Below, in pieces: positions 10,616 through 26,167 of a stretch of 26,167 nt of DNA; within the stretch, counting starts at the first letter, position 1, and the number at the start of each line of letters is the position of its first letter. Under the pieces are notes generated by a model. That model was not told the DNA's origin. It searched no databases and saw nothing but the letters and a program-made list of their open reading frames with translations. This DNA is from a virus, in IMG/VR virus record IMGVR_UViG_3300030451_000031, positions 1-26,167 of that record; one strand, 5' to 3'. The position numbers and the translations under genes were made by a program.

Positions 10616-11113
10616 CTATGCTCTCCTCGACATTAATCCCATAGGCTCTTGTTGGGGTTGCTCTTCTTGCATTGTTTCTTGATTTTCCTCTACAGGCATA
10701 TCATCCTGATTTAAATTTTTTTCTTTCATAATGTCACTTATAATTCTATTAGCAATAGTAGGTCTTTCATTTTCCATACCTTCCATTCCTGTTTGATATT
10801 TAACATTTGCAGAATCAGCTATTGTAATCATTAGTTCTACTATAATGGGTATCATTAGTATGCCTACGTCAACTGTATGCATACCTTCCATAACACTAGC
10901 TAATTGTATAGTATTTGCTAAAGTGGTTAATGGCACACCCATTTCCATGACATCAATCAATTGTGCTTTAAACTGATCTGATCCCATTCTTTCTATATAA
11001 TAATCAGTAGCTTCCTCTACTGTTACTAATGCTGGAGGGGTTTGCCAAGGTCTAGCTCCTACTTCATGTGTCATTCCCATTCCGGGGATGGGTCTATCAA
11101 ACGATTGTTCCAT
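10616..11113 (-). CDS. Virion-module hypothetical protein, 165 aa
   Basis: The conserved-looking body starts MEQSFDRPIPGMGMTHEVGARPWQ, so I place the start at 11113, where a GGAG lies nine bases upstream. A longer frame reaches 11149 but has no ribosome site and would overlap the previous gene by 53 bases. Proteins with an FDRPIPG opening, a YxxER helical middle and a hydrophobic helix (VDVGILMIPIIVELMITIAD) are common in marine podoviruses, always among virion genes, and remain uncharacterised. The C-terminal 40 residues are Gln/Glu/Met-rich and low in complexity. A structural or assembly role is inferred from location only. Confidence 0.6.
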   Translation of the reverse strand: MEQSFDRPIPGMGMTHEVGARPWQTPPALVTVEEATDYYIERMGSDQFKAQLIDVMEMGVPLTTLANTIQLASVMEGMHTVDVGILMIPIIVELMITIADSANVKYQTGMEGMENERPTIANRIISDIMKEKNLNQDDMPVEENQETMQEEQPQQEPMGLMSRRA

Positions 11114-11330
11114 CGTCTTTGTCTCCATTCTTTTGTGTATTTCTTGCATTTCTAATATGCATTTGTATTTCTTTTGCTATCATTGCAGGTTGCTTCTTTG
11201 TGTCAGACATTTCTTGAACAGGTGTTCTCGATCTTGACATCATGCCCATACTTTTAGGTTTAGCTTCTTTTTCTGGTAATTTTAATTTTGCAAATGAATT
11301 TAAAATTTGTAGTGTTGGGTTTGTTATCAT
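11097..11330 (-). CDS. Small hypothetical protein, 77 aa
   Basis: I do not recognise this protein. It is basic and polar, with a short helical N-terminus (LQILNSFAKLKLPEKE), a Met/Ser/Arg stretch (KSMGMMSRSRTP), and a hydrophilic end. It starts with ATG whose A is the last base of the preceding stop (TAATG arrangement), a strong sign of coupled translation, and it overlaps the next gene by 17 bases with the start chosen there. It probably encodes a minor virion or assembly protein. Confidence 0.6.
   Translation of the reverse strand: MITNPTLQILNSFAKLKLPEKEAKPKSMGMMSRSRTPVQEMSDTKKQPAMIAKEIQMHIRNARNTQKNGDKDDGTIV
11123..11126 (-). promoter_or_regulatory. Shine-Dalgarno GGAG supporting the 11113 start
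   Basis: GGAG lies nine bases before ATG 11113. The alternative starts at 11149 and 11128 have no comparable purine-rich site, so this motif decides the start of the 165-residue gene. Confidence 0.5.
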
Positions 11331-13321
11331 TATCCAAATAGTCCTCTAGTTATTGCAGCACCACCTAATGTGCCTATCAAATTACCCACTGCAGTTCCTG
11401 CAGCAGAGCTTGATTCCATAGCCGCGACTTCTTTTCTAATATCAGCACTAACTTCTGCTATGGCTAATTGATTTATTCTATCTAATTGATTATCTGCACT
11501 TCTCCATGCCCACTCCATTGTATCACTATAATGTGACCACAGATTATCGTAGGCTTCTTTTGATATATCTAATATTGCATTTGCATTGAGTTCATTAGCT
11601 CTGTTTACTGCAACAGTATCTGCAGTAGCAATCTCTCTTCTCCATACTGCATTGTTCTGTGCTATAGCTAATTGATTCTGTGCATTAAACTGATCACGTT
11701 GATTATTTATTTCAGCATTAAATCTTTCTACTGTATTCACTTGACCTGCATTAAACTGAGATTGAGCATTTGCTTGTGTTGCATTAAACTGCGATGCTAG
11801 TTGTGATAAGTTAGAAAAAAACTGATCTACTTGATTTTGAGATGTTGCATTGAATTGATTAGCAGCGTTAACTGCGGCTTGATCTGTGAACAAAGATTGT
11901 ATCCTTTGTTGTGCTTTAAATAATTCTGTTTGTTGTAGATTACTTAAATTAGCCATATCTAATTGTAAAAAGTTTTGTGCGTTTTGAACTGCAGCTTGTT
12001 GTCTATTATTTAAATTAGACATATCCATATTACTTAACGCTGATGCTTCTGCTAATACAAGAGCCTGTCTATTTGACAAGTTATTTAAGTTCATTGTATT
12101 TGCGGCTTGACTATTCTCTAAAGCTATAGCTTGCTCTGCAGTAAAATTTTGATTTGCTATATCGCTAATCTTTGAAGCATTTGCAACTCTAGCTTGAAAT
12201 TCTTGATCAAACTCTTGACCTATAAACTCTGCTCTTTGTTGAGCAGCTAACATTGCTCTTTGTTGTCTATTAGATAAGTTCTTATCTTCAAATTGTGCAA
12301 ATATTGTAGCATCTGCTTGTGCCACAGGTAATGCAGATTCTAATGCCGCTTGCACAAGAGCTTGTCCTGCCACACTAGAAACACTTAAACCTCTTTTGGC
12401 TAGTTGAGCACCTACACTTCTTATAGCTCCTGCCGCCCATGAAGGAGGATTTTCAAGATCAAAGTCTTTTGTTAATGATGATAGCTGACCTGCTACAGTT
12501 GCCTTTTCACTAGGTGTTGCAGTTGCCGCTTCAATTTGTTCTGTAAATTTAGCTGCCTTCTCTGCATTTGCCGCACCTTCAATTAATTCACCACTTTGTA
12601 TTTTTCTTTGAACAGGATTTTGTAATTCTATTGCTTGACCTTGGGCAGCATTTAAATCGCCAACACTTGTTGCAGTTTGTTGGGCAGCAACAACTGAGGC
12701 TCTAGGGTCTTCTAAACTTGTTTGGGCAGCGTTAGTTGCCGCTAAAGCACTATCTACTCCAGTAGAACTTCTTTCTGCAGTTGTTAGGTTAGCCTCTTTT
12801 TCGTCTTGTAACTGTTGAGTTGTAGTTGTTGCTTGTGCAGTAGATACACCAACTGTGCCTTCTACTTGACCTGTGTCTCCACTTATAAGCTGATCTTGAG
12901 TTACTTGTGTGCCAACAGGTATAGTTACACCACCCTCAGGTAAAGAGGGGTCTTGTGCTCTATCTGTAAAAACATCTCCTATACCTGTTTCAGGTGTGTA
13001 GTCTGATCCTACAGGAACATCTGCTTGTGGTAATTGTCTTGGGTCTGCTTGAGCATTAGGGTTAGGAAGATTTAATTCAGCAGGGGGGATTGTATATATA
13101 GGGTCTGTAATGAAAGAAGGAGGAGTAGCACCACCCTCTTGCATTCTAACAACACCACCTTTAGCCATCTGCCTAGCTAAAGATTCATAGACAACCATTT
13201 GTCTTTTCTTCTCAGGATTTTGTTCTAGGTAACTGTCAAAGTCATCCATCGAACCTGTGTACCCCATTCTAGAGGCAATCTTTTGTATACCCTGAGGTTT
13301 AAATCCAATAAATCTAGCCAC
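11330..13321 (-). CDS. Gln/Ala-rich hendecad-repeat virion protein, gp14-like by position
   Basis: A 663-residue protein read from GTG 13321. It has four zones. Residues 1-60 form a basic helical head ending in GGVVRMQEGG, a motif I associate with marine phage virion proteins. Residues 61-170 are Pro/Thr/Gln-rich linker. Residues 190-600 are a long helix rich in Gln, Ala and Asn with 11-residue repeats: NLSN/NLNN motifs at 348, 414, 436 and 458, and QFNA/RFNA at 489, 511, 522, 533 and 544. Residues 640-663 are a Gly/Ala hydrophobic tail that could insert in a membrane. Composition and its place first in the ejection-protein series suggest a counterpart of T7 gp14. A needle or fibre protein is the alternative. 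Confidence 0.55.
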   Translation of the reverse strand: MARFIGFKPQGIQKIASRMGYTGSMDDFDSYLEQNPEKKRQMVVYESLARQMAKGGVVRMQEGGATPPSFITDPIYTIPPAELNLPNPNAQADPRQLPQADVPVGSDYTPETGIGDVFTDRAQDPSLPEGGVTIPVGTQVTQDQLISGDTGQVEGTVGVSTAQATTTTQQLQDEKEANLTTAERSSTGVDSALAATNAAQTSLEDPRASVVAAQQTATSVGDLNAAQGQAIELQNPVQRKIQSGELIEGAANAEKAAKFTEQIEAATATPSEKATVAGQLSSLTKDFDLENPPSWAAGAIRSVGAQLAKRGLSVSSVAGQALVQAALESALPVAQADATIFAQFEDKNLSNRQQRAMLAAQQRAEFIGQEFDQEFQARVANASKISDIANQNFTAEQAIALENSQAANTMNLNNLSNRQALVLAEASALSNMDMSNLNNRQQAAVQNAQNFLQLDMANLSNLQQTELFKAQQRIQSLFTDQAAVNAANQFNATSQNQVDQFFSNLSQLASQFNATQANAQSQFNAGQVNTVERFNAEINNQRDQFNAQNQLAIAQNNAVWRREIATADTVAVNRANELNANAILDISKEAYDNLWSHYSDTMEWAWRSADNQLDRINQLAIAEVSADIRKEVAAMESSSAAGTAVGNLIGTLGGAAITRGLFG
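11672..11872 (-). repeat. QFNA 11-residue repeats within the 663-aa protein
   Basis: Residues 484-550 of the encoded protein contain five QFNA/RFNA units, the last four at a strict 11-residue step and the first 22 residues earlier. This makes a 33-base in-frame periodicity. A hendecad step is typical of right-handed coiled coils. Confidence 0.7.
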
Positions 13322-13554
13322 TATTTAGCTCCAATTAATATTTTATCTAACTTATCTTCTAATCTTTTCATTGCATCCATGATGTCATGCATATCTTCTT
13401 TGACATCATCTTTACGTGCATACTCTTCTCGTGTCTTATTTAATAATATTTGTAATCTCTTTACTTCGCCAAACATCTTGTTGAATGCCCAACCAAATGG
13501 TACAACGACCATAGTTAGGATAATATTCCAAAATAACATTGCATCTATTTCCAT
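13321..13554 (-). CDS. One-TM coiled-coil protein, possible lysis protein
   Basis: A 77-residue protein with one hydrophobic segment at residues 7-24 (LFWNIILTMVVVPFGWAF) followed by a basic turn and a charged coiled-coil helix to the C-terminus (KRLQILLNKTREEYARKDD, MKRLEDKLDKIL). This is the shape of an inner-membrane spanin or a small holin-like protein. No lysis gene is otherwise recognisable in the window, which makes the role plausible but unproven. The stop overlaps the GTG of the next gene by one base (TAGTG), so the two are coupled. A virion-assembly membrane protein is an alternative. Confidence 0.55.
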   Translation of the reverse strand: MEIDAMLFWNIILTMVVVPFGWAFNKMFGEVKRLQILLNKTREEYARKDDVKEDMHDIMDAMKRLEDKLDKILIGAK

Positions 13555-13556
13555 GT

Positions 13557-13745
13557 TTATTCTGCTTCTTGTATTGTGTTGCCTTCAGCTACCCATTCTA
13601 GGATTGCTTTGTAGTATCTGTGGTTAGCACCAATTGGAACAAAGAAAGTTTGATTACGTGAAATTATTTTAATAATTTGTTTTTCACCATCAACTGGATT
13701 AGTCACATATTGTGCTGAAGTAATTTGTATTTCGTTGCTATTCAT
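13557..13745 (-). CDS. Small tail-fibre accessory protein, XkdW-like C-terminus
   Basis: A 62-residue protein whose end, YYKAILEWVAEGNTIQEAE, matches the Y-x-x-I-L-x-W-V-A-E-G-N-T-I motif common in small phage proteins encoded next to tail fibres (XkdW-like, often thought to be fibre chaperones). The N-terminal half is beta-rich (IQITSAQYVTN, KQIIKIISRNQTFFVPI). It lies nine bases downstream of the 349-residue tail fibre gene, the usual place for such a partner. Function is by family resemblance only. Confidence 0.6.
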   Translation of the reverse strand: MNSNEIQITSAQYVTNPVDGEKQIIKIISRNQTFFVPIGANHRYYKAILEWVAEGNTIQEAE

Positions 13746-13753
13746 ATAATATC

Positions 13754-14803
13754 CTATAATTCTGCATCCATTTGAAGAAAAGCATCACTTCCACTATTTA
13801 AATAAATTACACTATTAGCACTTCCACTTCCTGCACCAATTCCTGATCTGCCAGTGAAAGTGTTGTATATAGTAGGATTTCCTGCAAATCCAGTACTGCT
13901 TGTAAATGTACCACTATTAGTGCCTACTGGAGTATCTCTCATCTCTGTATAAAAATGGACATCATTTAGTCTTGCTCCTGTATTGTGATAATATCTTGAT
14001 AAATTAAAATAAGTAAATGTAAATTTTTGATAGTATCTTTGACATAGTAATAATTCTTCAGCAAGTGTCCTATGCTCAAATGGTGTGGCTACAGAGCCTA
14101 CTTCTAGTTGTACACCCGTGATATATAATTCATTGTCTGTGCTATCAAAAAGACTTTGACAACCAACCATTCTATTTGCACTAGTTGTTCCACCCCATGT
14201 TGTTTGTAAAGTTCCACTTGTGTAGTCTGAACCTGCATGAAACCAAAATATAATAGTCAGACCAGTTGTAATATCGTTATCTATTTCTCCAGTTGTATCT
14301 GCAGGAACGTCTATCGTAAATCTTTGCCAAGAAGTTGTAGTAGTAAATGTTCTACTAAATCTTCGTGAATTATCATCTTGAAACTCTACTATAAATGTCT
14401 TTGCAGTACCTTTTGCATAAAAACTAAATGTAGATTTTTTTGCAGCAGATGTTCCTTTAGCTAACGATTGTACGTTTAACCCTTCAATGCGTTGAAGAAC
14501 CCCTACTGACTCACCTGATGCAATACTTGTATCAGCAGTTGTAACATCTATTTTCATAGAGTTAGTAAAACCATCAGGTGTATCTGTAGATTGTGACATT
14601 GTAAATCTACCTGCTGTAGTTCCATTTATTCCTACATTAAATCTATCAAGAGTAAAGTATCCTGCAGCCGAACCTACATTACTTGAACTTGTAGCTCTTT
14701 GTGAAACTTGCATACCACCATTGATGATAATATTTCTTCGCCCACTAATCTGACTGTTGGTTAGGACTTCGCCCATCTTTGCTAATTCTGCTGCTTTTGT
14801 CAT
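13754..14803 (-). CDS. Tail fibre / receptor-binding protein, 349 aa
   Basis: The protein opens with a short helix (MTKAAELAKMGEVLTNSQI) and the NIIINGGMQVSQR motif typical of marine phage fibre domains. A beta-rich carbohydrate-binding-module-like fold covers residues 40-235 (STFSFYAKGTAKTFIVEFQD, SWQRFTIDVPA, LTIIFWFHAG). Then comes LYITGVQLEVGSVATPFEHR with AEELLLCQRYYQKF, a signature of C-terminal fibre regions in many marine phages. The final 75 residues are likely the most variable and may contact the receptor. The gene overlaps the start of its own upstream neighbour by four bases (ATGA), linking it to the tail-assembly-like gene. Confidence 0.8.
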   Translation of the reverse strand: MTKAAELAKMGEVLTNSQISGRRNIIINGGMQVSQRATSSSNVGSAAGYFTLDRFNVGINGTTAGRFTMSQSTDTPDGFTNSMKIDVTTADTSIASGESVGVLQRIEGLNVQSLAKGTSAAKKSTFSFYAKGTAKTFIVEFQDDNSRRFSRTFTTTTSWQRFTIDVPADTTGEIDNDITTGLTIIFWFHAGSDYTSGTLQTTWGGTTSANRMVGCQSLFDSTDNELYITGVQLEVGSVATPFEHRTLAEELLLCQRYYQKFTFTYFNLSRYYHNTGARLNDVHFYTEMRDTPVGTNSGTFTSSTGFAGNPTIYNTFTGRSGIGAGSGSANSVIYLNSGSDAFLQMDAEL

Positions 14804-15363
14804 TCTGTAGTCTCCTGTGGGAAATCATATATAGGTGCGTTATCGCCTTCTTTTTCAGCTTCAAACAATGCCATAAACTCTTTTAAGTTAGAACAATTAT
14901 TAATTTTAGTTTCTATTGTATTACAAGCAGTTCTTACACTATCTCTATATTTTGTTGTTGCATCAGGTATTGCAGTTCCCTTTTCTGCTTTACGTGTAAT
15001 CATCCAATCTGTGTTAGATAATAAGGTATTAGCAGTTTGTTTTGTTTTAGTTATCCAAATAGATTTCAATCCTAGTTGTACTGCTTGTTTACCTGTCATA
15101 GGGTCTATTACTGCTTTTCCATCCTCATCAGTTGACTTTACATCTGTAAGACTACGTTCAATTAAACTACCATCTGTTTTTCTACCCCAATAAAATCTAT
15201 CATCAAAAGGTGTTTCAGATGCAGGTGGGTTCTCCCAAACTAAACCTTTATCTTTCTTTGCAGAGTCAGACCATATCATCCAATTAGAAGGATGTCTAAT
15301 TTTATTGTCATCTACCCAACTTCTTCCTACTTTTATTGTTCTTCCGTTATGCTTCCACGGCAT
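14800..15363 (-). CDS. Tail fibre assembly-like protein, 187 aa
   Basis: The C-terminal part follows the pattern of phage tail assembly chaperones: TANTLLSNTDWMITRKAEKG, then AIPDATTKYRDSVRTACNTI, then NLKEFMALFE. This L-L-x-x-T-D-W ... Y-R-x-x-V-R arrangement is typical of small proteins that help fold or trimerise fibres. The N-terminal part (MPWKHNGRTIKVGRSWVDDN, HPSNWMIWSDSAKK) is a separate small domain often present in the marine versions. It lies between two fibre genes and overlaps the next one by four bases. I infer that it assists one or both. Confidence 0.65.
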   Translation of the reverse strand: MPWKHNGRTIKVGRSWVDDNKIRHPSNWMIWSDSAKKDKGLVWENPPASETPFDDRFYWGRKTDGSLIERSLTDVKSTDEDGKAVIDPMTGKQAVQLGLKSIWITKTKQTANTLLSNTDWMITRKAEKGTAIPDATTKYRDSVRTACNTIETKINNCSNLKEFMALFEAEKEGDNAPIYDFPQETTE

Positions 15364-15374
15364 AGTCTATCTCC

Positions 15375-17801
15375 CTATCTTGCATTACTAAATTTAAATG
15401 GCTGTTCTGCAAATGCCCAGTAAATGTATGTATTTACATTAAAAGCATCATTACTCGTTCTTAATTTGAAACCATTACTTAAAAAGTCCAATGTTGTAAA
15501 TGTGGCATTTGCTTGATTGGTATTTGGGTTTAATTCTAAATCAACTACATTGCTAGTATTTCTTTTATTATCGTAAAGATACCAATTATGAGCTGCAGTT
15601 CTTCTAATCAAAAGCCAAGCAGGTCTAAATCCAGTGTAAACAAATGTGCCATCTGCATTACTGTTGCCATTATAAGAACCAAATTTAGAGAATCCATCAA
15701 TTTCAGCAAAAGCATAAAGGACATAAGTTCCATTTAATGCATTAGTATTTGTACTATCTCCTAAATTAATCACTGTTGATGTAGGTGCTGTGCTATTCCA
15801 ATGTGTAGCTTCTACATCTTGAGCAGTAGTTAAATTTAAAGGTATCCAATAAGAAGCATCCGTATAATCTTGATGGTAGGTAACCCAATGACTAGTTGAA
15901 TCTCGTCTTTTTGCTATCATCATTTTAGGAACTGCACCTAATCCATGTGCTATTGTACCATTATTTCCAGTTCCAGTATATGTTATAATACTAAATCCTG
16001 CAGTTGTGTTCGCTTGTACTGTACTTGCTATAGATGGAACTCCACTTGATATATCACCTACTGAAATATTTGAAGTTGTTCCACCATTAGCTTTCCAACT
16101 CCAAGCCACATAGGTATCACTACTTCTATTAACATACCAAGTATCATCTGTATTATCATCTAAAGTAAAACCTGTAGGGTCAAAAGAACGAACTTGGTCA
16201 TTTTCTCCCGCGTATTCTTCTGTAGTACCATTTGTCATAAGAACTCTCATGCTATCTCCAGTTCCTAATCCTCTACTGGAATCAGCTAAGTAATGTGAAG
16301 CAACTTGGTTTGTTGGCTTAATCCATAGCCAATCTGGTTGAAAACCAACATCAGTTCTTTGATGTGTATTTAAGCCATTACCATCATATGTAATTGTATT
16401 AAAATGGTCATCTGCTTGAGTACTACTATTTGGACCTATTGCAACGTTTGGCATATTAGCTGAACATAATGCTAAAAACCCACTTGGAGGTGCATAGTAA
16501 AAATCTCCTCTTCCATTATCATCTGAAGCATTATTTGAGCCACTTGTTTTCTCTCCAGTAAAAGAACTATCTTGCCCAAAGTTTGCTATATTATCTGATG
16601 TTCTACCACCAGATGAATCATACAAATAAGGAAAATATTCTGCATCTGTCGTGTAATTTCCAGAATAAACACTAGAATTATTATTAAAAAATTGAATACT
16701 TTTTGCATCTACATCAACTGCAACTCCCATGATATCACCATCATCAAAAGTGCCAGTATTACTTAATATTGAGTTATCTATTCTTGGTGTTCCATTATAC
16801 ATATCTAAACTTTGTCCTTTACCACTATGAACTGTATTTTCAATATTATTAATACCAACAAAACCATTATTGCCATCTTTAGAAAGCACTTCAAAATAAA
16901 CTTTGCCATGAAGTTTTATAGTTCCAGTTGTAAAACCTCTATTAGTTGACGATGACTGAAATCTTAAAGCACCCCTAGAGATAGTTACTTGTCCTCTATT
17001 GTCGTTTGTATTTAAAGGTAATAATGTGCAAAAATTATTTTCAGGACTATCAGGTAAATCACTGTCGTGTTCATCTAAATTATAATCTTTATAATGATTA
17101 TTGTTACCACTTGTATCTGCACCTATTGTGGTTGAACTTGCAGTAGTTTCACCATCACCAGTTTGTTTAAACTGCAATCTATAACCATTTGTACCATATG
17201 TTACATTTGGTTCTTTAGCAATCCAAACTCCATTTTTTGTTTCACCAAAGTCAGACGCTTCATATTTTTGACCATCTGTGTAATTTACTTCAGCTAAATA
17301 CATATCATTAAAATAAGATGTACCCCAAGAGTGTTTTCCAATAACCATAGGTACACTAGATTGATTCATAGGATAATTGCTATCTCCGGGATTCCTACTA
17401 GAGTTTAATGCTATTTCATCTCCATTTACCCAAACTTTTTGACTTGTATTCGCAGCATCGACTTGATGTACAAAATGATACCAATTTGTAGTATCTCTAA
17501 ATTGTACGTCACTAATTATACCATAATTACTACCAGTTCCATAGTAACTAGCAAGTTTTCCCTCTTTAAAATAAAAAGCAAAATAATTACTACCAGAGTG
17601 AGCAGTATAAATATATTGGTTAGAACGAGTTACATTAGTTCTTTTTATCCAACCACTCCAAGTCCAAGTTTTTCTATCACCAGTGCTTGAAGGAGTAAAA
17701 TTTAAATATGGTCCAGTATCATAATCCATTCGTAATGAACGTGTAGCAACGTTATTATAAAAATTTCCCTCACCAAACCATAATGAACCTTGACCTGTCA
17801 A
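15375..17801 (-). CDS. Multidomain receptor-binding protein: LamG, SPRY and repeated beta modules
   Basis: An 808-residue protein read from TTG 17801, which has GGAG eight bases upstream. Residues 40-185 look like a LamG/concanavalin A-like lectin domain (TWSGWIKR, WYHFVHQVDAAN, VWVNGDEI, YLAEVNYTDGQ). Residues 270-410 look like a SPRY domain (GKVYFEVL, GFVGI, IMGVAVDVDAKSIQFFNN). Residues 465-808 hold three related beta modules with the pattern GFxPxWLxIK ... YxAWxWxA at about 487-571, 620-705 and 725-800. Multi-lectin proteins of this kind are common in marine phage tail clusters and probably bind host surface glycans. It is not essential to know the fold to see that it is entirely beta. 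The next gene starts 11 bases on. Confidence 0.75.
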   Translation of the reverse strand: MTGQGSLWFGEGNFYNNVATRSLRMDYDTGPYLNFTPSSTGDRKTWTWSGWIKRTNVTRSNQYIYTAHSGSNYFAFYFKEGKLASYYGTGSNYGIISDVQFRDTTNWYHFVHQVDAANTSQKVWVNGDEIALNSSRNPGDSNYPMNQSSVPMVIGKHSWGTSYFNDMYLAEVNYTDGQKYEASDFGETKNGVWIAKEPNVTYGTNGYRLQFKQTGDGETTASSTTIGADTSGNNNHYKDYNLDEHDSDLPDSPENNFCTLLPLNTNDNRGQVTISRGALRFQSSSTNRGFTTGTIKLHGKVYFEVLSKDGNNGFVGINNIENTVHSGKGQSLDMYNGTPRIDNSILSNTGTFDDGDIMGVAVDVDAKSIQFFNNNSSVYSGNYTTDAEYFPYLYDSSGGRTSDNIANFGQDSSFTGEKTSGSNNASDDNGRGDFYYAPPSGFLALCSANMPNVAIGPNSSTQADDHFNTITYDGNGLNTHQRTDVGFQPDWLWIKPTNQVASHYLADSSRGLGTGDSMRVLMTNGTTEEYAGENDQVRSFDPTGFTLDDNTDDTWYVNRSSDTYVAWSWKANGGTTSNISVGDISSGVPSIASTVQANTTAGFSIITYTGTGNNGTIAHGLGAVPKMMIAKRRDSTSHWVTYHQDYTDASYWIPLNLTTAQDVEATHWNSTAPTSTVINLGDSTNTNALNGTYVLYAFAEIDGFSKFGSYNGNSNADGTFVYTGFRPAWLLIRRTAAHNWYLYDNKRNTSNVVDLELNPNTNQANATFTTLDFLSNGFKLRTSNDAFNVNTYIYWAFAEQPFKFSNAR

Positions 17802-17809
17802 TTACGTAT

Positions 17810-17813
17810 CTCC
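17810..17813 (-). promoter_or_regulatory. Shine-Dalgarno GGAG for the TTG start at 17801
   Basis: GGAG sits eight bases before TTG 17801, which opens the conserved-looking TGQGSLWFG start. The next in-frame ATG is at residue 25 and would cut the domain entrance, so the TTG start is preferred. Confidence 0.55.
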
Positions 17814-17816
17814 AAA

Positions 17817-18158
17817 TTAAATAACTTCTTGTGCTTCTTTAAATGTTTTAAATTCTTTTTTCACATTATCTGTCCATGTTGCATTACAAATAGTTTGAAC
17901 TTGTGCGTCTTCTTTTGAAATATCAGTAGCTGTATGTGTCCATTGTAATTTACCGTCTTTATCTAAATCAGGTATCATTGCTCCATCATCATCTTTTTTT
18001 GTTTTATAAACAGATGCAAAAGGTTGCAAGACATGACGATGTACTGACCTTGATACCTCATTACCATTTTCTTTTATAGTAGTGTCAGTTCTTACATGGA
18101 TTGACCAATTATTTACTATTTCTATTTTACCTATTTTAATTTCTTTTGTTAAACTCAT
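17817..18158 (-). CDS. Tail-cluster hypothetical protein, 113 aa
   Basis: A small protein beginning MSLTKEIKIGKIEIVNNWSI, with HVRTDTTIKENGNEVSRSVH as a beta-rich middle, a Lys/Asp-rich loop (TKKDDDGAMIPDLDKDGK), and a C-terminal helical stretch ending EFKTFKEAQEVI. Similar small proteins with an IKEDGxExSRSxHRH-like core occur beside fibre genes in marine phages. Their function is unknown; they might be fibre accessory or assembly factors. It sits 15 bases upstream of the multi-lectin gene and 8 bases after the 299-residue fibre gene. Confidence 0.6.
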   Translation of the reverse strand: MSLTKEIKIGKIEIVNNWSIHVRTDTTIKENGNEVSRSVHRHVLQPFASVYKTKKDDDGAMIPDLDKDGKLQWTHTATDISKEDAQVQTICNATWTDNVKKEFKTFKEAQEVI

Positions 18159-18166
18159 AAAAGCTC

Positions 18167-19066
18167 CTAATCTGTTATATATGTACCCCCAATAAGAAGA
18201 GTTACAGAATCGCCATCTTGGTCACCACGTTGTACCCCATCACCATTATTATTATGTCTATACCTAAGAAGTCCAAATTCAGTTGCATCTGGAGCAATTC
18301 TTGCAGTCATTGCTAACATACTTGCAGATGTAAATTTAATATAACTACTAAATCCCACACTCATTGATTGTTGCATATTAGTAGTTGAATTTGATGAAAA
18401 AGGTAATCCTGATACTGTTATACTACCACTTCCAGTTATTACACCAGCCACATGGGCATGAGCAGTTACTATATTACCAACTTTTACATATCTCCCAACT
18501 TGTGTAGAATGACTGCTTACTCCACTTAATGAAGGTGTCCAAGAACCTTCTTCGTAATCATGTAGCAAGTTAGAGGCAGTCGCAGAATTTACACCTAGAT
18601 AAATACCTGCACTTGCACTCGCAGGAAGTAAATCATTATTAGTACCATTGTTAGACCAACCTGTAATTCCTACACCTGATAATCCAGAGCCGTCACCACT
18701 GAAGGCATTTCCTGTTATTGTACCAGAAGAGGTGAAATTACCACTAACAGTTACAGCACCATCAAATGTGCCACCATCAGATTTACTTACTGTATCTGCT
18801 ACAGAGAAGACATCATAAACAATTATGACTACAACATCGTCTGCAGAAGCTCCTTGAGCTAATACGACTTGTGTACCATTGGTTGAAGTATAATCTGATT
18901 TATCTAGTAAAACACCATTTTGATATACGTCTATGTAAGTAGAGTCTGTGTATGCAAGAGTTTGACCCTCTGTACTTGCACCACTAAAAGTAGTTTGACT
19001 TGCAGTAGCAGTATATGAGTATACTCTTCTTACTCCATTTGAGGGAGATGTTCCAATATAAGGCAT
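18167..19066 (-). CDS. Tail fibre protein with MPYIG N-terminus, 299 aa
   Basis: The N-terminus MPYIGTSPSNGVRRVYSYTA is followed by a domain of about 90 residues with DVYQNGVLLDKSDY and VVVIIVYDVFSVAD, a common baseplate or fibre attachment module of marine phages. A Gly/Ser/Thr-rich shaft follows (GTITGNAFSGDGSGLSGVGI), then a beta-rich C-terminal domain, residues 150-299, likely the receptor-facing end. The same MPYIGxSPS start occurs in the next upstream gene, so the two products may dock at the same site. Role inferred from domain style and position. Confidence 0.75.
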   Translation of the reverse strand: MPYIGTSPSNGVRRVYSYTATASQTTFSGASTEGQTLAYTDSTYIDVYQNGVLLDKSDYTSTNGTQVVLAQGASADDVVVIIVYDVFSVADTVSKSDGGTFDGAVTVSGNFTSSGTITGNAFSGDGSGLSGVGITGWSNNGTNNDLLPASASAGIYLGVNSATASNLLHDYEEGSWTPSLSGVSSHSTQVGRYVKVGNIVTAHAHVAGVITGSGSITVSGLPFSSNSTTNMQQSMSVGFSSYIKFTSASMLAMTARIAPDATEFGLLRYRHNNNGDGVQRGDQDGDSVTLLIGGTYITD

Positions 19067-19079
19067 TAATTACTCTCCA

Positions 19080-19529
19080 TTATGCTTCTACAAAATCTTT
19101 TTGGATTGCTCCTAACAATATTGTGCCATCGGCTTTCACAAAATATGGCACGACATCTACATCGTTAGCACCTGTAGATAAAGTAAGAGAAAATCCCCCT
19201 GCTACATGATATCTGTCATCTGCATGAGATAATGTGTGACCACCTGTGCCATCTTGTATAAATACAAATACACCTGACTGTCCTGCTACTTCATCTCCGG
19301 GGTCAGTTAAAGTTAAGTTACCTGTTAGTGTATAAATAAAATTAGTATATTGGGAAAAGTCTGGAGCTTTATTTCCACTAACATTAGTTGTGCTACTTGC
19401 ACCATCTGTATTAGGTACATTACCTGCACCTATTGTTATAGCACTTCCTACACCTGCGTCAGATGTTATACTATTAATTGATATACTTGTAGGTAAAGTG
19501 TCACTAGGACTCTGACCAATATAAGGCAT
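19080..19529 (-). CDS. Tail-associated protein with MPYIG N-terminus, 149 aa
   Basis: A short beta-rich protein opening MPYIGQSPSDTLPTSISINS, with the first residues shared with the adjacent 299-residue fibre. The middle has an alternation of Thr, Asn and hydrophobic strands (FIYTLTGNLTLTDPGDEV, GVFVFIQDGTGGHTLS) and the end is DVDVVPYFVKADGTILLG. It lacks any long shaft, so it may be a cap or adaptor rather than a fibre. Its ATG overlaps the previous stop by one base (TAATG), indicating coupled translation. Function is unknown beyond virion association. Confidence 0.65.
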   Translation of the reverse strand: MPYIGQSPSDTLPTSISINSITSDAGVGSAITIGAGNVPNTDGASSTTNVSGNKAPDFSQYTNFIYTLTGNLTLTDPGDEVAGQSGVFVFIQDGTGGHTLSHADDRYHVAGGFSLTLSTGANDVDVVPYFVKADGTILLGAIQKDFVEA

Positions 19530-19870
19530 TATGTAATCTCCATAATACTCAATGTAGCACTAATTTTGTCTGCTACAGAACAATCTACCTTTATAATATC
19601 TGATGCTTCTAAAATTATTTTATTACCTCCCATGATCTCTAAACTACCACCTACAGGTATCGGTGCGTTTTTTACCACATGTGAAGTTTCATTACTGTTA
19701 CTACTGTCTATTACTGTAACTGAAGTTGTGACTTGTGATGTATGAACATTTGCAAGTGTCAATCCTATAACAACAGTAGTTGTGCTACTAGGCACAGTGT
19801 AAAGAGTGTCAGGAGTACCTGCACTACTAGGCATCACTGCGTTGTTCTTTAATTTAAATGTATTTGCCAT
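19529..19870 (-). CDS. Small beta-rich virion protein, 113 aa
   Basis: The protein begins MANTFKLKNNAVMPSSAGTP and contains LYTVPSSTTTVVIGLTLANV, then SVTVIDSSNSNETSHVVKNA, then EASDIIKVDCSVADKISATL. This is a single beta-sandwich-like domain with the character of a small neck, fibre-base or head-decoration protein in marine phages. AGGA seven bases before ATG could serve for translation. However, the strong promoter just upstream would start RNA at about base 19865, inside codon 2, so this gene is likely read from a longer upstream transcript while the downstream genes gain extra mRNA. Confidence 0.65.
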   Translation of the reverse strand: MANTFKLKNNAVMPSSAGTPDTLYTVPSSTTTVVIGLTLANVHTSQVTTSVTVIDSSNSNETSHVVKNAPIPVGGSLEIMGGNKIILEASDIIKVDCSVADKISATLSIMEIT

Positions 19871-19871
19871 A

Positions 19872-19900
19872 ATTATATCCTATTTTTACTAATTTGTCAA
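19872..19900 (-). promoter_or_regulatory. Consensus sigma-70 promoter inside the virion module
   Basis: On the minus strand TTGACA (19895-19900) is followed by exactly 17 bases and TATAAT (19872-19877), a full match to the sigma-70 consensus in all twelve positions. It lies in the 41-base gap between the long fibre gene and the next gene, in the right orientation. Start of transcription would be near 19865. It would add host-polymerase transcription of the fibre, lysis-candidate and ejection genes downstream. Confidence 0.7.
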
Positions 19901-19911
19901 TGCTTTCTTAA

Positions 19912-22293
19912 TTAACCTAATGCAATCGCTAATGCAGTTGGGTCTTCACTAGAAAAACCTGCACTTGTCAAATATGTTTTCAAAGTAGTTAATGCTACTT
20001 GTTTCATAGTACCACCATCGTTGGTTACTAATCTGTCTGCATCTGCTAATGTAATCGCTGAAGCAGATGTGTCACCATCCATGACATTTAATTCTGCCGC
20101 AGTAGATGTTACTCCATCTAAGATGTTTAGTTCTGCAGTAGTGGATGTTACCCCATCTAATATATTTAGTTCTGCAGTAGTGGATGTTACTCCATCTAAT
20201 ATGTTTAGTTCTGTTGCAGTTGATGTAATAGAAGTCCCTGCTATTTGTAATGTTGTTGCATTGACTTCACCACTAGAACCATATATGACTGCTTTACTAT
20301 TTACTATTGTTCCTGCAGATGAACCATCAACTAAGTTTAGTTCTGTAGCAGTTGAATCTACGGCAGCTAATTTTGTAAAATCAGCCTGTACTAATCCTGA
20401 AACTCCATCTAATAAGTTTAACTCTGTTGCAGTAGATGTTAATGCTACATCTTCATTTATCTTTGGACTTGTTAATGTTTTGTTTGTTAAAGTTTGTGTT
20501 GCTGCTATACCTGTAATTGTATCTGTAGTAGCAGGTAAAGTTAATGTTATGTCTCCTGAAAAGGCAGAGTGTGCAGGAGCTTGTAATCTTGCATAGTGTG
20601 CATTTGATGATTCACAATAAAAGTCTATGTAAGATTGACTTCCTGAGTTCTTAATAGATATAGAACCTGACTGCATATCAATACCATTAGAACCATCTAT
20701 TCTTACAACACCTGTTCCATTTGGTGTAAGTGCAATATTACCATTAGATACAGAAACAATAGCATTTCCATTTACATCTAGGTCTCCACCTAGTTGTGGT
20801 GTGCTATCACCACTTATATCAGATAATCCACCAAGTCCTGATGATAATGTTGCAAGTGTAATCTTTTTTAGTCCACTAGCAGAGTTATCAAACATTAATA
20901 ATGTATCATTAGATGTATCTAAAGATGTCTCTGTAGATTGTCCACTAATAACATTTGCATTTAACATTGCAGTTTCTACTGCATCATTAGCTATGGTTAC
21001 TGCACCTGTGTTTGATATTGTTACATCACCTGATACTGCTACAGGATTAAAGTTAGTTCCATCTGCAACCATAATGTGACCACTAGTGTTAGTACCCATA
21101 GTCAAGTCATCACCTGATATGGTTAAGTCACCTGTAACAACTACGTCACCACTAAAAGTAGCTTTACCTGCTAATGCCATATCAATGTCAAGAGCAGTTA
21201 TTGCACTAGAACCATCTGTTCCTTTTATTGCAAAGTTTTTGTCTGCAGTGCTTACTGTTAATTCTACATCACTAGAATTGTTAGCTATATCAAGTATTGA
21301 TGTACCACCATCTTTAAATATAACGTTAGCACCATCAGCATCGAGAATAATATCACCACCTGCATCAAGAGTTATATCACTAGAGTTATCTATCTCTGCA
21401 ATAACAGGAGTAGTTAGTGTTTTGTTTGTGAGAGTTTTTGTTGTAGCAGAAAAATATGTGTCTAAGTCTGTAACTGCAACTTGAACCATTGTTCCATCGT
21501 CATTTAAAACAACTCTATCTGCATCTGCCACAGTTGTAGATGTTGCACTAGTATTACCATCTATGATATTTATTTCTGCTGCAGTAGAGGTAACACCATC
21601 TAGTATATTTAGCTCTGCTGCAGTAGATGTTACACCATCGAGAATATTTAACTCTGAGGCAGTCGCTGTAACCCCATCGAGAATATTTAACTCTGCTGCA
21701 GTAGAAGTTACGTTAGTACCACCTATGTCAAGTGTAGTTACAGATATCTCTCCTGCGACAGTTAAAATACCTGATGCAAGTGTAAGTAAGTCAGTATCAT
21801 CTGTGTGACCTATAGTAGCACCATTAATATTTATATTATCAATAACTGCTTGTGTAACTGCACTGTTTGTTCCTAATGTTACACCATCTATTGTGCCACC
21901 ATTTATATCTGCAGTATCAGCAACTAAACTATCTATATTAGCAGTGCCATCAAGATGTAAATCTTTAAACTCAAGACTACTTGTTCCCAAGTCAATATCG
22001 TTATCTGTAATTGGTACAATAGCACCATCTTGTATTCTTAATTGTTGTACAGCAGCAGAAGATACTTCTACATAAAATTCTAAGTGATTGTTTGTTGTGT
22101 CTACAAATATTTTGTTTAAAGAATCAGTATCTCTAAGAGTGGTTACAGGACCACCATCGGCTGCAGTGCCATCATGTGAGTGTCCTGTACTTGCTACGAA
22201 AGCTGCTAATAACTGATTAAACTCATCATTGGTATGAGCCGCAGTTATTATGTCTCCATCTGTATATGTAGATTGTCTAGTATATCCTGCCAT
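19912..22293 (-). CDS. Long repeat-rich tail fibre protein, 793 aa
   Basis: The N-terminus (MAGYTRQSTYTDGDIITAAH, NDEFNQLLAAF, GHSHDGTAADGGP) is a common attachment domain of marine phage fibres. The shaft consists of beta-helix-like segments with INGGTIDGVTLG, DITLDAGGDIILDADGANV, TLTNKTLTTP and TLTNKTLTSP. There are two blocks of four 13-residue repeats (STAAELNILDGVT) near residues 197-248 and 691-742, each followed by the same DADRxVxNDxGTMxQVA stretch. Such repeats build long, stiff, trimeric fibres. It directly follows the tail nozzle gene, so it is likely the main fibre attached to the tail. The C-terminus is short (SSEDPTALAIALG) with no evident receptor domain, so separate downstream proteins may supply the tip. 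Confidence 0.8.
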   Translation of the reverse strand: MAGYTRQSTYTDGDIITAAHTNDEFNQLLAAFVASTGHSHDGTAADGGPVTTLRDTDSLNKIFVDTTNNHLEFYVEVSSAAVQQLRIQDGAIVPITDNDIDLGTSSLEFKDLHLDGTANIDSLVADTADINGGTIDGVTLGTNSAVTQAVIDNININGATIGHTDDTDLLTLASGILTVAGEISVTTLDIGGTNVTSTAAELNILDGVTATASELNILDGVTSTAAELNILDGVTSTAAEINIIDGNTSATSTTVADADRVVLNDDGTMVQVAVTDLDTYFSATTKTLTNKTLTTPVIAEIDNSSDITLDAGGDIILDADGANVIFKDGGTSILDIANNSSDVELTVSTADKNFAIKGTDGSSAITALDIDMALAGKATFSGDVVVTGDLTISGDDLTMGTNTSGHIMVADGTNFNPVAVSGDVTISNTGAVTIANDAVETAMLNANVISGQSTETSLDTSNDTLLMFDNSASGLKKITLATLSSGLGGLSDISGDSTPQLGGDLDVNGNAIVSVSNGNIALTPNGTGVVRIDGSNGIDMQSGSISIKNSGSQSYIDFYCESSNAHYARLQAPAHSAFSGDITLTLPATTDTITGIAATQTLTNKTLTSPKINEDVALTSTATELNLLDGVSGLVQADFTKLAAVDSTATELNLVDGSSAGTIVNSKAVIYGSSGEVNATTLQIAGTSITSTATELNILDGVTSTTAELNILDGVTSTTAELNILDGVTSTAAELNVMDGDTSASAITLADADRLVTNDGGTMKQVALTTLKTYLTSAGFSSEDPTALAIALG
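20068..20223 (-). repeat. Four tandem 39-bp repeats, C-terminal block of the long fibre gene
   Basis: Four in-frame 39-base units encode STATELNILDGVT, STTAELNILDGVT twice, and STAAELNVMDGDT. The two middle units differ at only a few bases. Single related copies occur around 20320-20440. Confidence 0.85.
21550..21705 (-). repeat. Four tandem 39-bp repeats, N-terminal block of the long fibre gene
   Basis: Four in-frame 39-base units encode STAAELNILDGVT, ATASELNILDGVT, STAAELNILDGVT and STAAEINIIDGNT. The block has the same length (156 bases) and order as the block at 20068-20223. Confidence 0.85.
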
Positions 22294-23835
22294 TTATCTT
22301 CTTGCTCCTACTTGATATTCTAATCCGAAACCTCTTAACGCATATGGTGCAGAAGTTCCGTTATCATTAACTCTAAGTGCTATAGTAAATCCTGAACCTT
22401 CGACAGATTGTCTAAGTAATGGTTCTGCCTGACCACCATAAGTTGATACACCGTAAGTAGCACTACCATATACGGCAGCTACATCTCCTGCAGATAAAGA
22501 ATAAGCTGCAGGTCTTGGTGTATTAGGGTCTTCGTAATCATACCTTAATAATAAGTCTGCATTGATTGAAGACTCAGGTTTATAACTAACAAGAACACGT
22601 TGCATATGTTTACGTATTCCTGCATCTCCAAAACCTAAATCAGGACTTCTGTACTTACCATCTATAGAAGTTCCATCAAAGTCATTACCACTTTCTTGTT
22701 CATAAACAAATCCATCAAATCCACCATGTATTATTGTTGTTCCAGTCGTGTCAACAAATGTAGATGTTGACGATGGTTTTATACCTTTTAGTTTAGCAAA
22801 TTCAAATTGTTGTCCTCTTAAAGAACAAATAGCACCTTCTGTTATAGATTCAGGTATTCCTGCCTTAGAAAAAAATACTCTGTATTGAGTTTTATTTGGT
22901 ATTACTAAAGACGTAAAATTAGTAGCAGTTGCTATGTTATCATTAAACAAAGGTTGAACAGTAGCACTTATAGTTCCTAATTCAACGTCACCAATTCTTG
23001 CAGTACCAGCAACTGTTCTTAATCCATCAGGTGCTAAGAAAATTAAATCACCTGCAAATTCTTGTATTGTCTGTCCATTTACACATCCTATATCTCTTGT
23101 TACAGGTATTACTGCAAAATCAGAGGCTGATGTGCCTGATAATTTAAATATTCTATTTTCACAAAAGATAAATAAATCTTCTCGGAAAACTTTAAGACCG
23201 ACAATAGTATCATCAACTAAAAAATTACTAGCAGGTAAAGTTCCTGAAGTGCTAAAATCGGTCTCATCAAGACCTTTACTTATTACAACTTCTTGTGGTT
23301 TACCTGACATACCTGCATAAACCATGTGATTCTTAAATGCTTTTACAAACTTAGCACCTGCCACTGAAGTTGATATTTCTCCAGTACCAGCTGAACTTAT
23401 ATCTGTTGCTGTAAAAGATGTGTTAAATACTGTCGGTGCATTATTACTACCACTAGCGACTATAAACTTATCAGTGCCATCAAAATTAAATATTTCAAAA
23501 TCATAAACACCTGCACTTGTTCTTCCTGTAGCTATAGCTGACCAAGAATTATTACCTGCAGTTGCAGTAAATATTTTTTCACCTCTTGCAGCAACAATCT
23601 TATTGTTAAATTTTATAGATAATAAAACTGCTTCTGTTGAGGCACTTGTTTGTGGCACAATATTATCAACAAGTTTAGTAAATCCATTTATTCTTCTATA
23701 TCCACCTTGTATATCAGGTTCAAAGTTTTGTAACTCTAATGCCTCTCCCGGTTGCATAGCAAACGTAGATTTATTTAAAACTAACCCACCCTGTAACGGA
23801 AAGTTTACAGGTGTTACTTGTGATGTATCAGGCAT
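22294..23835 (-). CDS. Tail nozzle / tail tube distal protein (gp12-like)
   Basis: A 513-residue protein opening MPDTSQVTPVNFPLQGGLVL, then NKSTFAMQPGEALELQNFEP, then GGYRRINGF. This start is typical of podovirus tail nozzle or stabilisation proteins (T7 gp12, P22 gp10 type), which build the beta-propeller-like lower tail. The body is full of short beta strands with Gly/Asp turns (NKIVAARGEKIFTA, FDGTDKFIVASGSN, FREDLFIFCENRIFKLSGTS, GDLIFLAPDGLRTVAG), in line with a propeller. It overlaps its upstream neighbour, the adaptor gene, by one base, which matches the T7 order gp11-gp12. The protein would anchor the fibres encoded just after it. Confidence 0.8.
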   Translation of the reverse strand: MPDTSQVTPVNFPLQGGLVLNKSTFAMQPGEALELQNFEPDIQGGYRRINGFTKLVDNIVPQTSASTEAVLLSIKFNNKIVAARGEKIFTATAGNNSWSAIATGRTSAGVYDFEIFNFDGTDKFIVASGSNNAPTVFNTSFTATDISSAGTGEISTSVAGAKFVKAFKNHMVYAGMSGKPQEVVISKGLDETDFSTSGTLPASNFLVDDTIVGLKVFREDLFIFCENRIFKLSGTSASDFAVIPVTRDIGCVNGQTIQEFAGDLIFLAPDGLRTVAGTARIGDVELGTISATVQPLFNDNIATATNFTSLVIPNKTQYRVFFSKAGIPESITEGAICSLRGQQFEFAKLKGIKPSSTSTFVDTTGTTIIHGGFDGFVYEQESGNDFDGTSIDGKYRSPDLGFGDAGIRKHMQRVLVSYKPESSINADLLLRYDYEDPNTPRPAAYSLSAGDVAAVYGSATYGVSTYGGQAEPLLRQSVEGSGFTIALRVNDNGTSAPYALRGFGLEYQVGARR

Positions 23836-24776
23836 TAAACTGTCCTACCAATAATGTTTGTTGTGCTATATGCTCCCACTCTTGGTATAAAAGTAGACCT
23901 TACATAGTCAAACTTGTTTACTAACAATGTTTGCATGTTCTTTATGCCTTGATCAAATCTGTCAAAATTTAATTGATACTGTGATGTTTCGCCTCTGTAT
24001 TGATATACAAATGCAGTTGCACCATCGATTATAACAGGATCAAATCTCTCAGGTATACTTGTTGTATCTCCATGTGCAGATAATTCTGTTGGAAAAGTAA
24101 AAAAATCAAATTTTACAGAATATGATTTATCAGGAAAAGGATAAAATAAATAGTTATTGTCAGGAGTTCTAACTACATATTCAGGTATACCACCTTTACT
24201 AAATTGTGCTACTGTTACTCCACTAGCTATAGAAGCAGCAGTTGTGCTAAAAGCACCTCTTGTACAACCTGTAAATGTTGTGCTACTACCAATTCCAGTA
24301 TAACTTATTTGTTCATTACCAATGTGTAAAGTCCCTGCAGAATCAAATCCTGAGGTACTTGCCACTGTTATAGTTGTTACACTATCTGTGTGTGTTGTGC
24401 TTGTTGTTGTAGTGTTTATTTCATCTTCTTGATCTATAACACTATTTATGTATTCATTGTAATCAAGTTGATTTAATCTATATCCTGAGTTGCCTAAATC
24501 ACTATCTTTGACTATTCTAAATGTATTATAATCTATTGTTTTAGTTGATGTCGGAACTGTGTATCTTACCACACCTGCAGTTAAAGTTTTAGTCTCTGTG
24601 CTATGATTAAAAGGATAATTAAATTCTCTTTGATTAATATATCTTATAGCTTCGTTTACTGCGTTTTGAGCTTGAACTTGTATTCCTCTAGCATTTACAA
24701 AAGATGAAGAAGTTAATTGTACTTCGTTCAACCTTGCCAAAGTTTTATTTGTAAGAGAAAGAAAAGTTCCTGACAT
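23835..24776 (-). CDS. Tail adaptor protein (gp11-like) with inserted beta domain
   Basis: A 313-residue protein with helical N-terminal sequence (LTNKTLARLNEVQL, AQNAVNEAIRYINQREFNYP) and a C-terminal half (GIPEYVVRTPDNNYLFYPFP, VKFDFFTFPTEL, FVYQYRGETSQYQLNFDRFD) typical of podovirus head-tail adaptors such as T7 gp11. Residues 121-190 look foreign: a Thr-rich lead (TTTTSTTHTD) and an Ile/Gly domain (TITVASTSGFDSAGTLHIGN, EQISYTGIG, TFTGCTRGAF). This domain type occurs as an insert in other marine phage tail proteins. The gene follows the capsid-side terminator and precedes the nozzle. It would link portal to tail. Confidence 0.75.
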   Translation of the reverse strand: MSGTFLSLTNKTLARLNEVQLTSSSFVNARGIQVQAQNAVNEAIRYINQREFNYPFNHSTETKTLTAGVVRYTVPTSTKTIDYNTFRIVKDSDLGNSGYRLNQLDYNEYINSVIDQEDEINTTTTSTTHTDSVTTITVASTSGFDSAGTLHIGNEQISYTGIGSSTTFTGCTRGAFSTTAASIASGVTVAQFSKGGIPEYVVRTPDNNYLFYPFPDKSYSVKFDFFTFPTELSAHGDTTSIPERFDPVIIDGATAFVYQYRGETSQYQLNFDRFDQGIKNMQTLLVNKFDYVRSTFIPRVGAYSTTNIIGRTV

Positions 24777-24796
24777 TTGTAATTCCTAAGTGTAAA

Positions 24797-24820
24797 GAGG
24801 AGCAAGTTGCCCTGCTCCCC
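24797..24820 (-). terminator. Intrinsic terminator between capsid and tail genes
   Basis: On the minus strand GGGGAGCA and TGCTCCTC can pair over eight base pairs (one G-T wobble) around an eight-base loop, followed by TTTACACTT. It starts seven bases after the TAA of the capsid-associated gene and precedes the adaptor gene. The U tract is interrupted, so termination is probably partial, as with the T7 terminator after gene 10. Confidence 0.6.
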
Positions 24821-24827
24821 TAAATAG

Positions 24828-25358
24828 TTACGCTAACTGGTCTCTATCGACCTCATCAGGCTTATCATCTAGTCCATGACCTGCTAAATCAATAACAGTT
24901 GCATAAACTCTGAGTCTGCCTGTAGCTGGAGCAGCACCTGCAATCTTACAATCAATAGTGTCTGTAGTAGTTACAAACTGAGTGTAAGTTGAAGCGGCAC
25001 TTCCTACAACAGTGTTAGTTTGACCATTAGTTCCTGCTGCACAAAAACCTGTAGAGGTTATATCTGCACCATCAATAATGTCATCACCACCATCAAAGTC
25101 CATGTCAAGAGTACAACTTGAAGTAAATGCTTTCATTACTTCTGCACCTGCATTCAAGACTAAAGTATTTGCTGGGATTTCTAACACCTGAAAGATGTCT
25201 CCATCTGAAAAACTGCCACCTGCTGCTACTAACGCATCAATATCAAGGTAAGCCTCAATATTTCTCATGACGTTACTATTCTTCATAGAAGGCATAGCTA
25301 CGATAGAGTCGGAAAATACACCAGTGGTATCTTTAGAGGTTAAATCAAAAGTTGCCAT
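24828..25358 (-). CDS. Capsid-associated (decoration-like) protein, 176 aa
   Basis: The protein begins MATFDLTSKDTTGVFSDSIV and consists of beta strands with Gly, Ala and Asp turns (FQVLEIPANTLVLNAGAEV, LDMDFDGGDDIID, TGRLRVYATVIDLAGHG), and ends in an acidic tail (DDKPDEVDRDQ). It contains cysteines at three to four positions that might form no disulfide in the cytosol. It lies 11 bases downstream of the major capsid gene and upstream of the terminator, the usual slot for a head decoration protein or a minor head protein. Proteins of this type are known from marine phage virions, but its exact place in the particle is inferred. Confidence 0.6.
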   Translation of the reverse strand: MATFDLTSKDTTGVFSDSIVAMPSMKNSNVMRNIEAYLDIDALVAAGGSFSDGDIFQVLEIPANTLVLNAGAEVMKAFTSSCTLDMDFDGGDDIIDGADITSTGFCAAGTNGQTNTVVGSAASTYTQFVTTTDTIDCKIAGAAPATGRLRVYATVIDLAGHGLDDKPDEVDRDQLA

Positions 25359-25369
25359 TTATATCTCCC

Positions 25370-26167
25370 TTACGCTACGTTATATTTAGCAGTTACGATT
25401 GCCTCAGGTCTGAGAATCTTTCTGCCATACAAATGCATACCACGAACAATATCAGCGAAAGAGTCAGGGTCTCTGTATGTCTCTGTCTTATTGATTTGCT
25501 CTGCAGTAGCTACTGCTGAACTATGTCCTGCAACGATAACTCCATAGTTGGAGTTTTGGTTTGCTGTACCTGTTGTTCCCGGACCTGTTCCAACTGCAGG
25601 TAGGTTATTTGACATGTATACGTCAAAACCATGTATTCTTCCTACAGATAGACCTTGTCTTAATCCACCTGACTCACCGAAGTCACCATTTAAAAGACGA
25701 GAATCTTCATCTTTTAAGACTTCAATAAATGTTGGATGTAAGACTAACCATCTTCCATCAGTGTCTACAAACTGTGTATCAAGCAGTCTGCCCATTCTTG
25801 CAATGATTTGCAATGGTGTAGCAGTTGTTGTTGCTTGAGCAGTTGCACCACCCATTCTTGGAGCTATCGGTATAGAATGATCTCCTGCACTACCTGTAGT
25901 AATGTTTCCGAAGTCACCCTTCTTTAGCTTCATGCTTGTCAACAATTCGTCTGAACCTGCAGTTGATACTGCTTTAGTTCCGTTAACTGTTGAGTTCGCT
26001 GAACTTGCAACTGCATTATTAGATGCCTGTGCAAATCCTGATAGATAACCAAGTACGTCTTGATCGTAGTTATCTTTTAGTCTGTAACCTGCTCTGTCAC
26101 TTGCGAGTTGAGAGAAGTTTACGTGACTGTGAGCCTCTTCAATATCGTCTATCTTGAAAGCAAAATA
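25370..26167 (-). CDS. Major capsid protein, C-terminal part (cut by window end)
   Basis: A clean frame runs from the window edge (first codon TAT at 26167-26165) to the TAA at 25370-25372. The TTG at 25945 is internal: upstream of it the frame continues FKIDDIEEAHSHVNFSQLAS, then DRAGYRLKDNYDQDVLGYLS. This is a typical marine podovirus major capsid stretch. Downstream, RWLVLHPTFIEVLKDEDSRL, SVGRIHGFDVYMSNNLPA and a C-terminal GRKILRPEAIVTAKYNV support a HK97-fold capsid protein. 265 codons are visible, and the N-terminal part is missing. The gene begins the virion operon visible here. It builds the icosahedral head. Confidence 0.88.
   Translation of the reverse strand, partial: YFAFKIDDIEEAHSHVNFSQLASDRAGYRLKDNYDQDVLGYLSGFAQASNNAVASSANSTVNGTKAVSTAGSDELLTSMKLKKGDFGNITTGSAGDHSIPIAPRMGGATAQATTTATPLQIIARMGRLLDTQFVDTDGRWLVLHPTFIEVLKDEDSRLLNGDFGESGGLRQGLSVGRIHGFDVYMSNNLPAVGTGPGTTGTANQNSNYGVIVAGHSSAVATAEQINKTETYRDPDSFADIVRGMHLYGRKILRPEAIVTAKYNVA

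Follow-up and report, generated by a model that had tools for sequence, protein, structure and literature searches.

Within the tail genes of a 26,167-nt stretch of viral DNA (the window, 35% GC), a 41-nt gap (positions 19871–19911) separates two genes read on the minus strand. Upstream lies the gene for a 793-aa fibre-like protein (19912–22293, minus strand), whose stop codon opens the gap; its PHROG match is of unknown function, and ‘fibre-like’ derives from its position and from the annotation of phage HMO-2011. Short tandem-like DNA repeats can be seen by eye within this gene, at about 20080–20200. Downstream is the gene for a 113-aa virion protein of the gp42 family of HMO-2011 (19529–19870, minus strand), predicted to be a single jelly roll. 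The gap holds TTGACAAATTAGTAAAAATAGGATATAAT (19900–19872, on the minus strand, which also codes for the tail genes), a match to the sigma-70 consensus at all 12 positions, as a sequence-only reading of this DNA had noticed: a −35 box, TTGACA (19895–19900, minus strand), and, 17 nt downstream, a −10 box, TATAAT (19872–19877, minus strand), both conserved in relatives, with a spacer at the optimum of the 16–18 nt range. AGGA at the end of the spacer (19878–19881, minus strand), 7 nt before the ATG, is likely to be a ribosome-binding site, available in read-through mRNA only. Transcription usually starts 6–8 nt past the −10 box, and the start predicted from this distance, 7 nt past the box at 19865 (minus strand), falls on the third base of the second codon of the 113-aa gene, agreeing with the earlier placement of the RNA start inside that codon. 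The same reading had taken this for the only sizeable gap among the tail genes, but a gap of 51 nt lies at 24777–24827, between the post-coat gene and a tail gene, and contains a terminator-like hairpin with a weak U-tract (24796–24821, minus strand).

Its gene content places the window in the genome of a marine phage of the HMO-2011 type: gene order and orientation agree with those of Puniceispirillum phage HMO-2011 over the part of the genome that the window covers, and its ribonucleotide reductase and tail/amidase genes are 72% and 55% identical, respectively, to those of that phage. Contig G006 (locus L013 at the promoter) is 99.86% identical to the window over 24.9 kb and hence belongs to the same species; its coat gene (L092) lacks 118 nt found at window positions 26003–26120, which breaks the frame and represents either a true deletion or an assembly error. 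Recorded hosts of relatives include Puniceispirillum, Pelagibacter and Rhodobacteraceae bacteria, among others.

TTGACA-17-TATAAT at 19900–19872 is the sole 12/12 site in the whole window. Dinucleotide shuffles of the window gave an expectation of 0.025 perfect matches per window at a spacing of 17 nt (15/600 shuffles had one), close to the earlier rough estimate of about 0.02, and of 0.055 at spacings of 16–18 nt, while shuffling the 41-nt gap produced a perfect match in only 1/200,000 cases. There was no surplus of weaker sites: at a spacing of 17 nt, 12 with two mismatches or fewer were found, a count that 22/100 shuffles reached, against an expectation of 9.3, and positions 10000–26167 held 49 promoter-like sites against 64.8 expected, so the weight falls solely on the perfect match and its conservation. 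A chance match in AT-rich DNA might be entertained, given that sites with 9–10 matches are no commoner than expected and a match alone therefore means little. The boxes are conserved across relatives, though, and shuffles and conservation together rule chance out, leaving it next to no probability and bearing out the original view that chance was unlikely.

Window positions 15000–24000 gave no match when phage records were searched for nearly identical DNA, and relatives were therefore sought by protein. Three gp42-family queries were used, namely the 113-aa protein of the window, HMO-2011 gp42 (39% identical to the former over 79 residues) and HTVC103P gp70 (45% identical to HMO-2011 gp42), and the best 80 loci per query, out of 563, 524 and 328 relatives respectively, yielded 240 mutually related loci. 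Among these best 80 per query, the gap to the upstream gene was bimodal in length, and the promoter followed it: a site matching at ≥10/12 positions was present in 174/174 gaps of ≥39 nt and in 0/65 gaps of ≤17 nt, one further locus of the 240 having a 12/12 promoter and a gap of unknown length. Fully 158/175 of these promoters were 12/12, and the spacer measured 17 nt in 172/175 and 16 nt in the other 3/175. Between the 58 distinct promoters with 17-nt spacers, pairwise identity was 97% in the boxes and 53% in the spacers (36% if random); the choice of promoters at ≥10/12 sets a floor on the box figure, yet no long gap scored lower. Pairwise identities were used because single-linkage clustering of the spacers was uninformative, A-rich spacers tending to chain.

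What is conserved, then, is two sigma-70 hexamers and the distance between them, and neither the spacer nor the flanks. Comparison of the gap across relatives had been proposed from the outset, with conservation of boxes and 17-nt spacing as the outcome in the promoter's favour, and this outcome was obtained strongly. Loss of the boxes where gene order is kept had been named as evidence against it; such loss does occur, in 65/240 loci, but the gap itself is gone there, and no long gap with decayed boxes was seen. Because boxes and 17-nt spacing are held while the spacer drifts, and because the gap is present only with the promoter in the loci examined, the pattern points to a promoter under selection. 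A reading of the −10 box as a mere AT-rich ribosome-binding region is ruled out, since conservation is just as strict in the −35 box and in the spacing.

A scan of viral contigs, in which the two boxes and the start ATGGCWAAYAC were fixed and 5–35 nt were allowed between the boxes, covered at least 119 loci. Among the matches listed for 119 loci, the distance was 17 nt in 94/131 box pairs over all genes, and in 65/72 pairs (44/49 unique sequences) preceding MANTF[KR] genes, the kind found in the window. Within those same listed matches, 17-nt pairs also preceded other genes, for example those with MANTDIM starts, and pairs at 25 nt and 20 nt preceded still others. The perfect pattern occurred in 14/30 whole records searched, and a backward control in 0/30.

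Cultured phages divide in the same way. Of eight isolates read, three (HMO-2011, HTVC103P and HTVC104P) have a 12/12 promoter in the same gap, and five (HTVC115P, CRP-9, CRP-13, HTVC106P and HTVC010P) have the gp42-family gene without it; the HTVC010P gap, at 27 nt, falls between the two gap classes and holds no promoter. This count of eight leaves aside HTVC026P and HTVC034P, which carry the gp42-family gene, as well as HTVC033P and CRP-1, 2, 3, 207, 212, 235, 345, 603 and 738, in which the gap lies beside a gene of unproven gp42 homology. Since 65/240 loci and 5/8 cultured phages keep the gene without it, the promoter is not essential.

The promoter appears to have turned over repeatedly. 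A tree built from 132 distinct protein rows requires a minimum of 14 changes of promoter state, 7 of them forced by starred branches; it is based on few columns, leaves 65 branches open and carries a long-branch warning. Two pairs of loci are instructive. In L054 and L055 the fibre and gp42-family genes are homologous, and the loci differ by about 50 nt holding the promoter. L041 and L046, one with the promoter and one without it before the same gene, are 99.7% identical from position −4 downstream, and blastn found no match between them over the upstream 1.1 kb. To judge from such alignments the promoter is gained or lost as a unit of about 50 nt, and the two pairs mark the joint as a site both of insertion or deletion and of recombination. 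That the L041/L046 breakpoint coincides with the site lends something to the notion that the boxes are kept for another factor, be it a phage DNA-binding protein or the recombination joint, and are not used by host sigma-70; we regard this as improbable, given that the parts conserved are precisely the sigma-70 hexamers and their spacing, and not spacer or flanks. Since the site is either close to perfect or missing, and closely matched pairs of both kinds exist, it offers a natural experiment on one late promoter before the same gene in cultured phages.

In 174/175 promoter-bearing loci the distance from the end of the −10 box to the ATG was 11–27 nt, which by the usual start rule predicts RNA beginning 5–21 nt before the gene. 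Among the 175, the species of the window alone (L013) has a distance of 1 nt and a predicted start inside codon 2. The claim that the next gene would be skipped thus fits the window's species and does not generalise. The HTVC103P gp70 query accounts for all 77 loci with a distance of 11–12 nt, and in every one (77/77) AGGA fell in the first 6 nt past the −10 box, ahead of the predicted start; promoter mRNA of HTVC103P-type loci would consequently have a leader of 5–6 nt without a ribosome-binding site, and be nearly leaderless. HTVC103P and HTVC104P, both pelagiphages, resemble the window in having a 12/12 promoter in the same gap and differ from it in this AGGA, ≤6 nt past the −10 box and ahead of the predicted start. 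HMO-2011, the type phage (NC_021864), likewise has, in the equivalent gap ahead of gp42, a 12/12 promoter whose spacer is 17 nt, but it has 26 nt, including a ribosome-binding site, from −10 box to ATG.

Against L001 and L003, whose proteins are 93–95% identical to that of the window and which have aagga between −10 box and ATG, the window lacks about 16 nt that include the aagga site. Deletion of this stretch in the species of the window may have taken the leader and ribosome-binding site and shifted the predicted start into codon 2, so that the first gene would be fully translatable only from mRNA begun upstream; the AGGA at the end of the spacer would now serve that gene on read-through mRNA, and the promoter would feed only the genes after it. 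Alternatively, the deletion could have uncoupled promoter from gene and left a relic in this species, its boxes intact only because the event was recent. The restriction of the 1-nt distance to the window and the 99.86% identical G006/L013 among loci fetched, and the full leader kept by L001 and L003 despite such similar proteins, would suit a recent loss; the boxes, however, are still 12/12, and AGGA is suitably spaced from the ATG; the region may thus have adapted. We consider a relic unlikely, if appreciably less so than use of the boxes by some other factor.

Taken together, these comparisons make it very probable that the site is a genuine promoter, of a known kind. Our preferred reading, which we hold with good though not full confidence, is that selection has maintained here a host-type sigma-70 promoter, which restarts transcription within the HMO-2011-type late block; conservation of boxes and spacing in relatives supports the initial proposal of a sigma-70-type promoter in the late module. 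Housekeeping sigma-70 promoters share with the site TTGACA-17-TATAAT, the coding strand and an intergenic position. It differs from them in lying within a virion gene block, in its perfect consensus and in being gained or lost as a unit, and in the window's species it also abuts the start codon. Under the preferred reading, the hairpin behind the coat block would halt part of the polymerase arriving from the coat gene, and the promoter would then provide mRNA for the small jelly-roll virion protein as well as for the genes further downstream. The layout recalls that of the gene 10 region of phage T7, where a promoter for the major capsid gene 10 has a terminator behind it and further promoters serve later virion genes; the likeness is one of layout, T7 using its own RNA polymerase and its own promoters.

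Structure prediction gives the 113-aa protein an all-beta fold at high confidence (model pLDDT 93), and this matches jelly-roll proteins, its close predicted-structure matches including phage virion structural proteins. The trimeric cement protein of Helicobacter phage KHP40 aligned with the model over 104 residues (Z 10.2, rmsd 2.9), and others scored alike: plant HDT2 (Z 10.2), nucleoplasmin-like histone-chaperone folds and viral turret jelly rolls. Were the product a many-copy surface protein, a promoter of its own would make sense.

Other parts of the late block complete the setting. A strong hairpin was present in the post-coat gap, behind the coat gene or genes adjacent to it, in 17/17 genomes folded, the window among them along with 16 isolates, the gap folding at −17 to −35 kcal/mol (no shuffle control); the hairpin is GC-rich, with a weak U-tract in the window and a good one in HMO-2011. 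Upstream of the coat gene, TTGACA-16-TATAAC, with a −10 box ending in C, was found in 61/73 relatives (62 by exact pattern), 7 of 80 loci having been dropped for short upstream DNA or want of a clear upstream gene, to leave 73 (L385–L464). Across the spacer and −10 box of this coat promoter an inverted repeat, AGTTAT/ATAACT, occurs in 32/62 exact-pattern loci, an 8-nt form of it in 24/62; it is possibly an operator.

No RNA polymerase is present among the annotated genes of HMO-2011. Sigma region 2 was found in 0/18 genomes, and PF00940 (T7-type polymerase) also in 0/18, although 14 control genomes were equally silent for the latter. Sigma region 4 gave one match in 18 genomes, below the family cut-off, in a 224-aa open frame of CRP-212 (MZ892988, 52190–52291, minus strand). 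The two sigma-region searches bear on a T4-kind late promoter, which consists of TATAAATA alone, without a −35 box. The gene concerned is structural and of late type, as such a promoter would have it. TTGACA is nevertheless as conserved as the −10 box, at a spacing fixed at 17 nt, and of the sigma regions only the sub-threshold region 4 of CRP-212 was seen among the 18 genomes. A conserved −35 box is the reverse of what defines the T4 type, which we reject as having hardly any likelihood.

The picture that emerges, drawn from sequence comparison, is of a late block that may be read by host polymerase from several promoters, and it suggests that late virion genes in such phages answer, at least in part, to ordinary sigma-70 control. 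Four sigma-70 promoters, near replication genes, have been reported in the pelagiphage Polarivirus skadi, which has no RNA polymerase of its own and for which use of the host polymerase has been proposed (PMC10504331). The word ‘promoter’ is absent from the available main text of three papers on HMO-2011-type phages (PMC9038755, PMC8528129, PMC6918029), and no report of a promoter at this place was found in the literature searched, which was mostly without subscription papers and included the available portions of PMC12753301 and PMC10504331. The all-or-none turnover is unusual, and so, in the species of the window, is an overlap with the start codon.

More tentatively, and with the balance somewhat against it, the promoter may be a portable cassette of about 50 nt, inserted, dropped or recombined at the joint between fibre and virion-surface genes, and part of a host-polymerase late programme with two kinds of mRNA. 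If so, these phages would run a late programme without a phage polymerase or sigma factor, built from the coat promoter and a structured leader RNA, the hairpin behind the coat block and a second promoter at the gp42-family gene. The same gene would be served by read-through RNA with a ribosome-binding site and by promoter RNA, the latter nearly leaderless in the HTVC103P group and without a start codon in the window's species.

The leader RNA, a structured element of about 165 nt, lies upstream of the coat gene (L385:1310–1480, plus strand; NC_021864 37413–37583, minus strand, corresponding to L085:30414–30584). No consensus fold emerged from a first alignment of 14 coat leaders, and an alignment of 54 sequences gave ≤3 pairs among the columns listed. 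In 24 closer sequences, hand-picked among the 49 references listed, and hence for that class, the structure has 42 pairs, 22 of them with compensatory changes, and 97.7% of cells are paired, against 29–45% when slid. No Rfam match was found in the sources searched. The model matched the coat leader in 60/73 coat loci, 24 of which had been used to build it, and in 8/16 isolates (E up to 0.014); it found no match in the window, in G006 (of the same species), in G001 or in the other 8/16 isolates, and gave 14 weak minus-strand matches.

Additional perfect sigma-70 sites were noted on the late strand elsewhere. In HMO-2011 another 12/12 site lies at 53396 (minus strand), ahead of the late strand, and G001 has perfect sites at 16793 and 11487 (both minus strand); like that of HMO-2011, these lie outside the listed open frames or genes.
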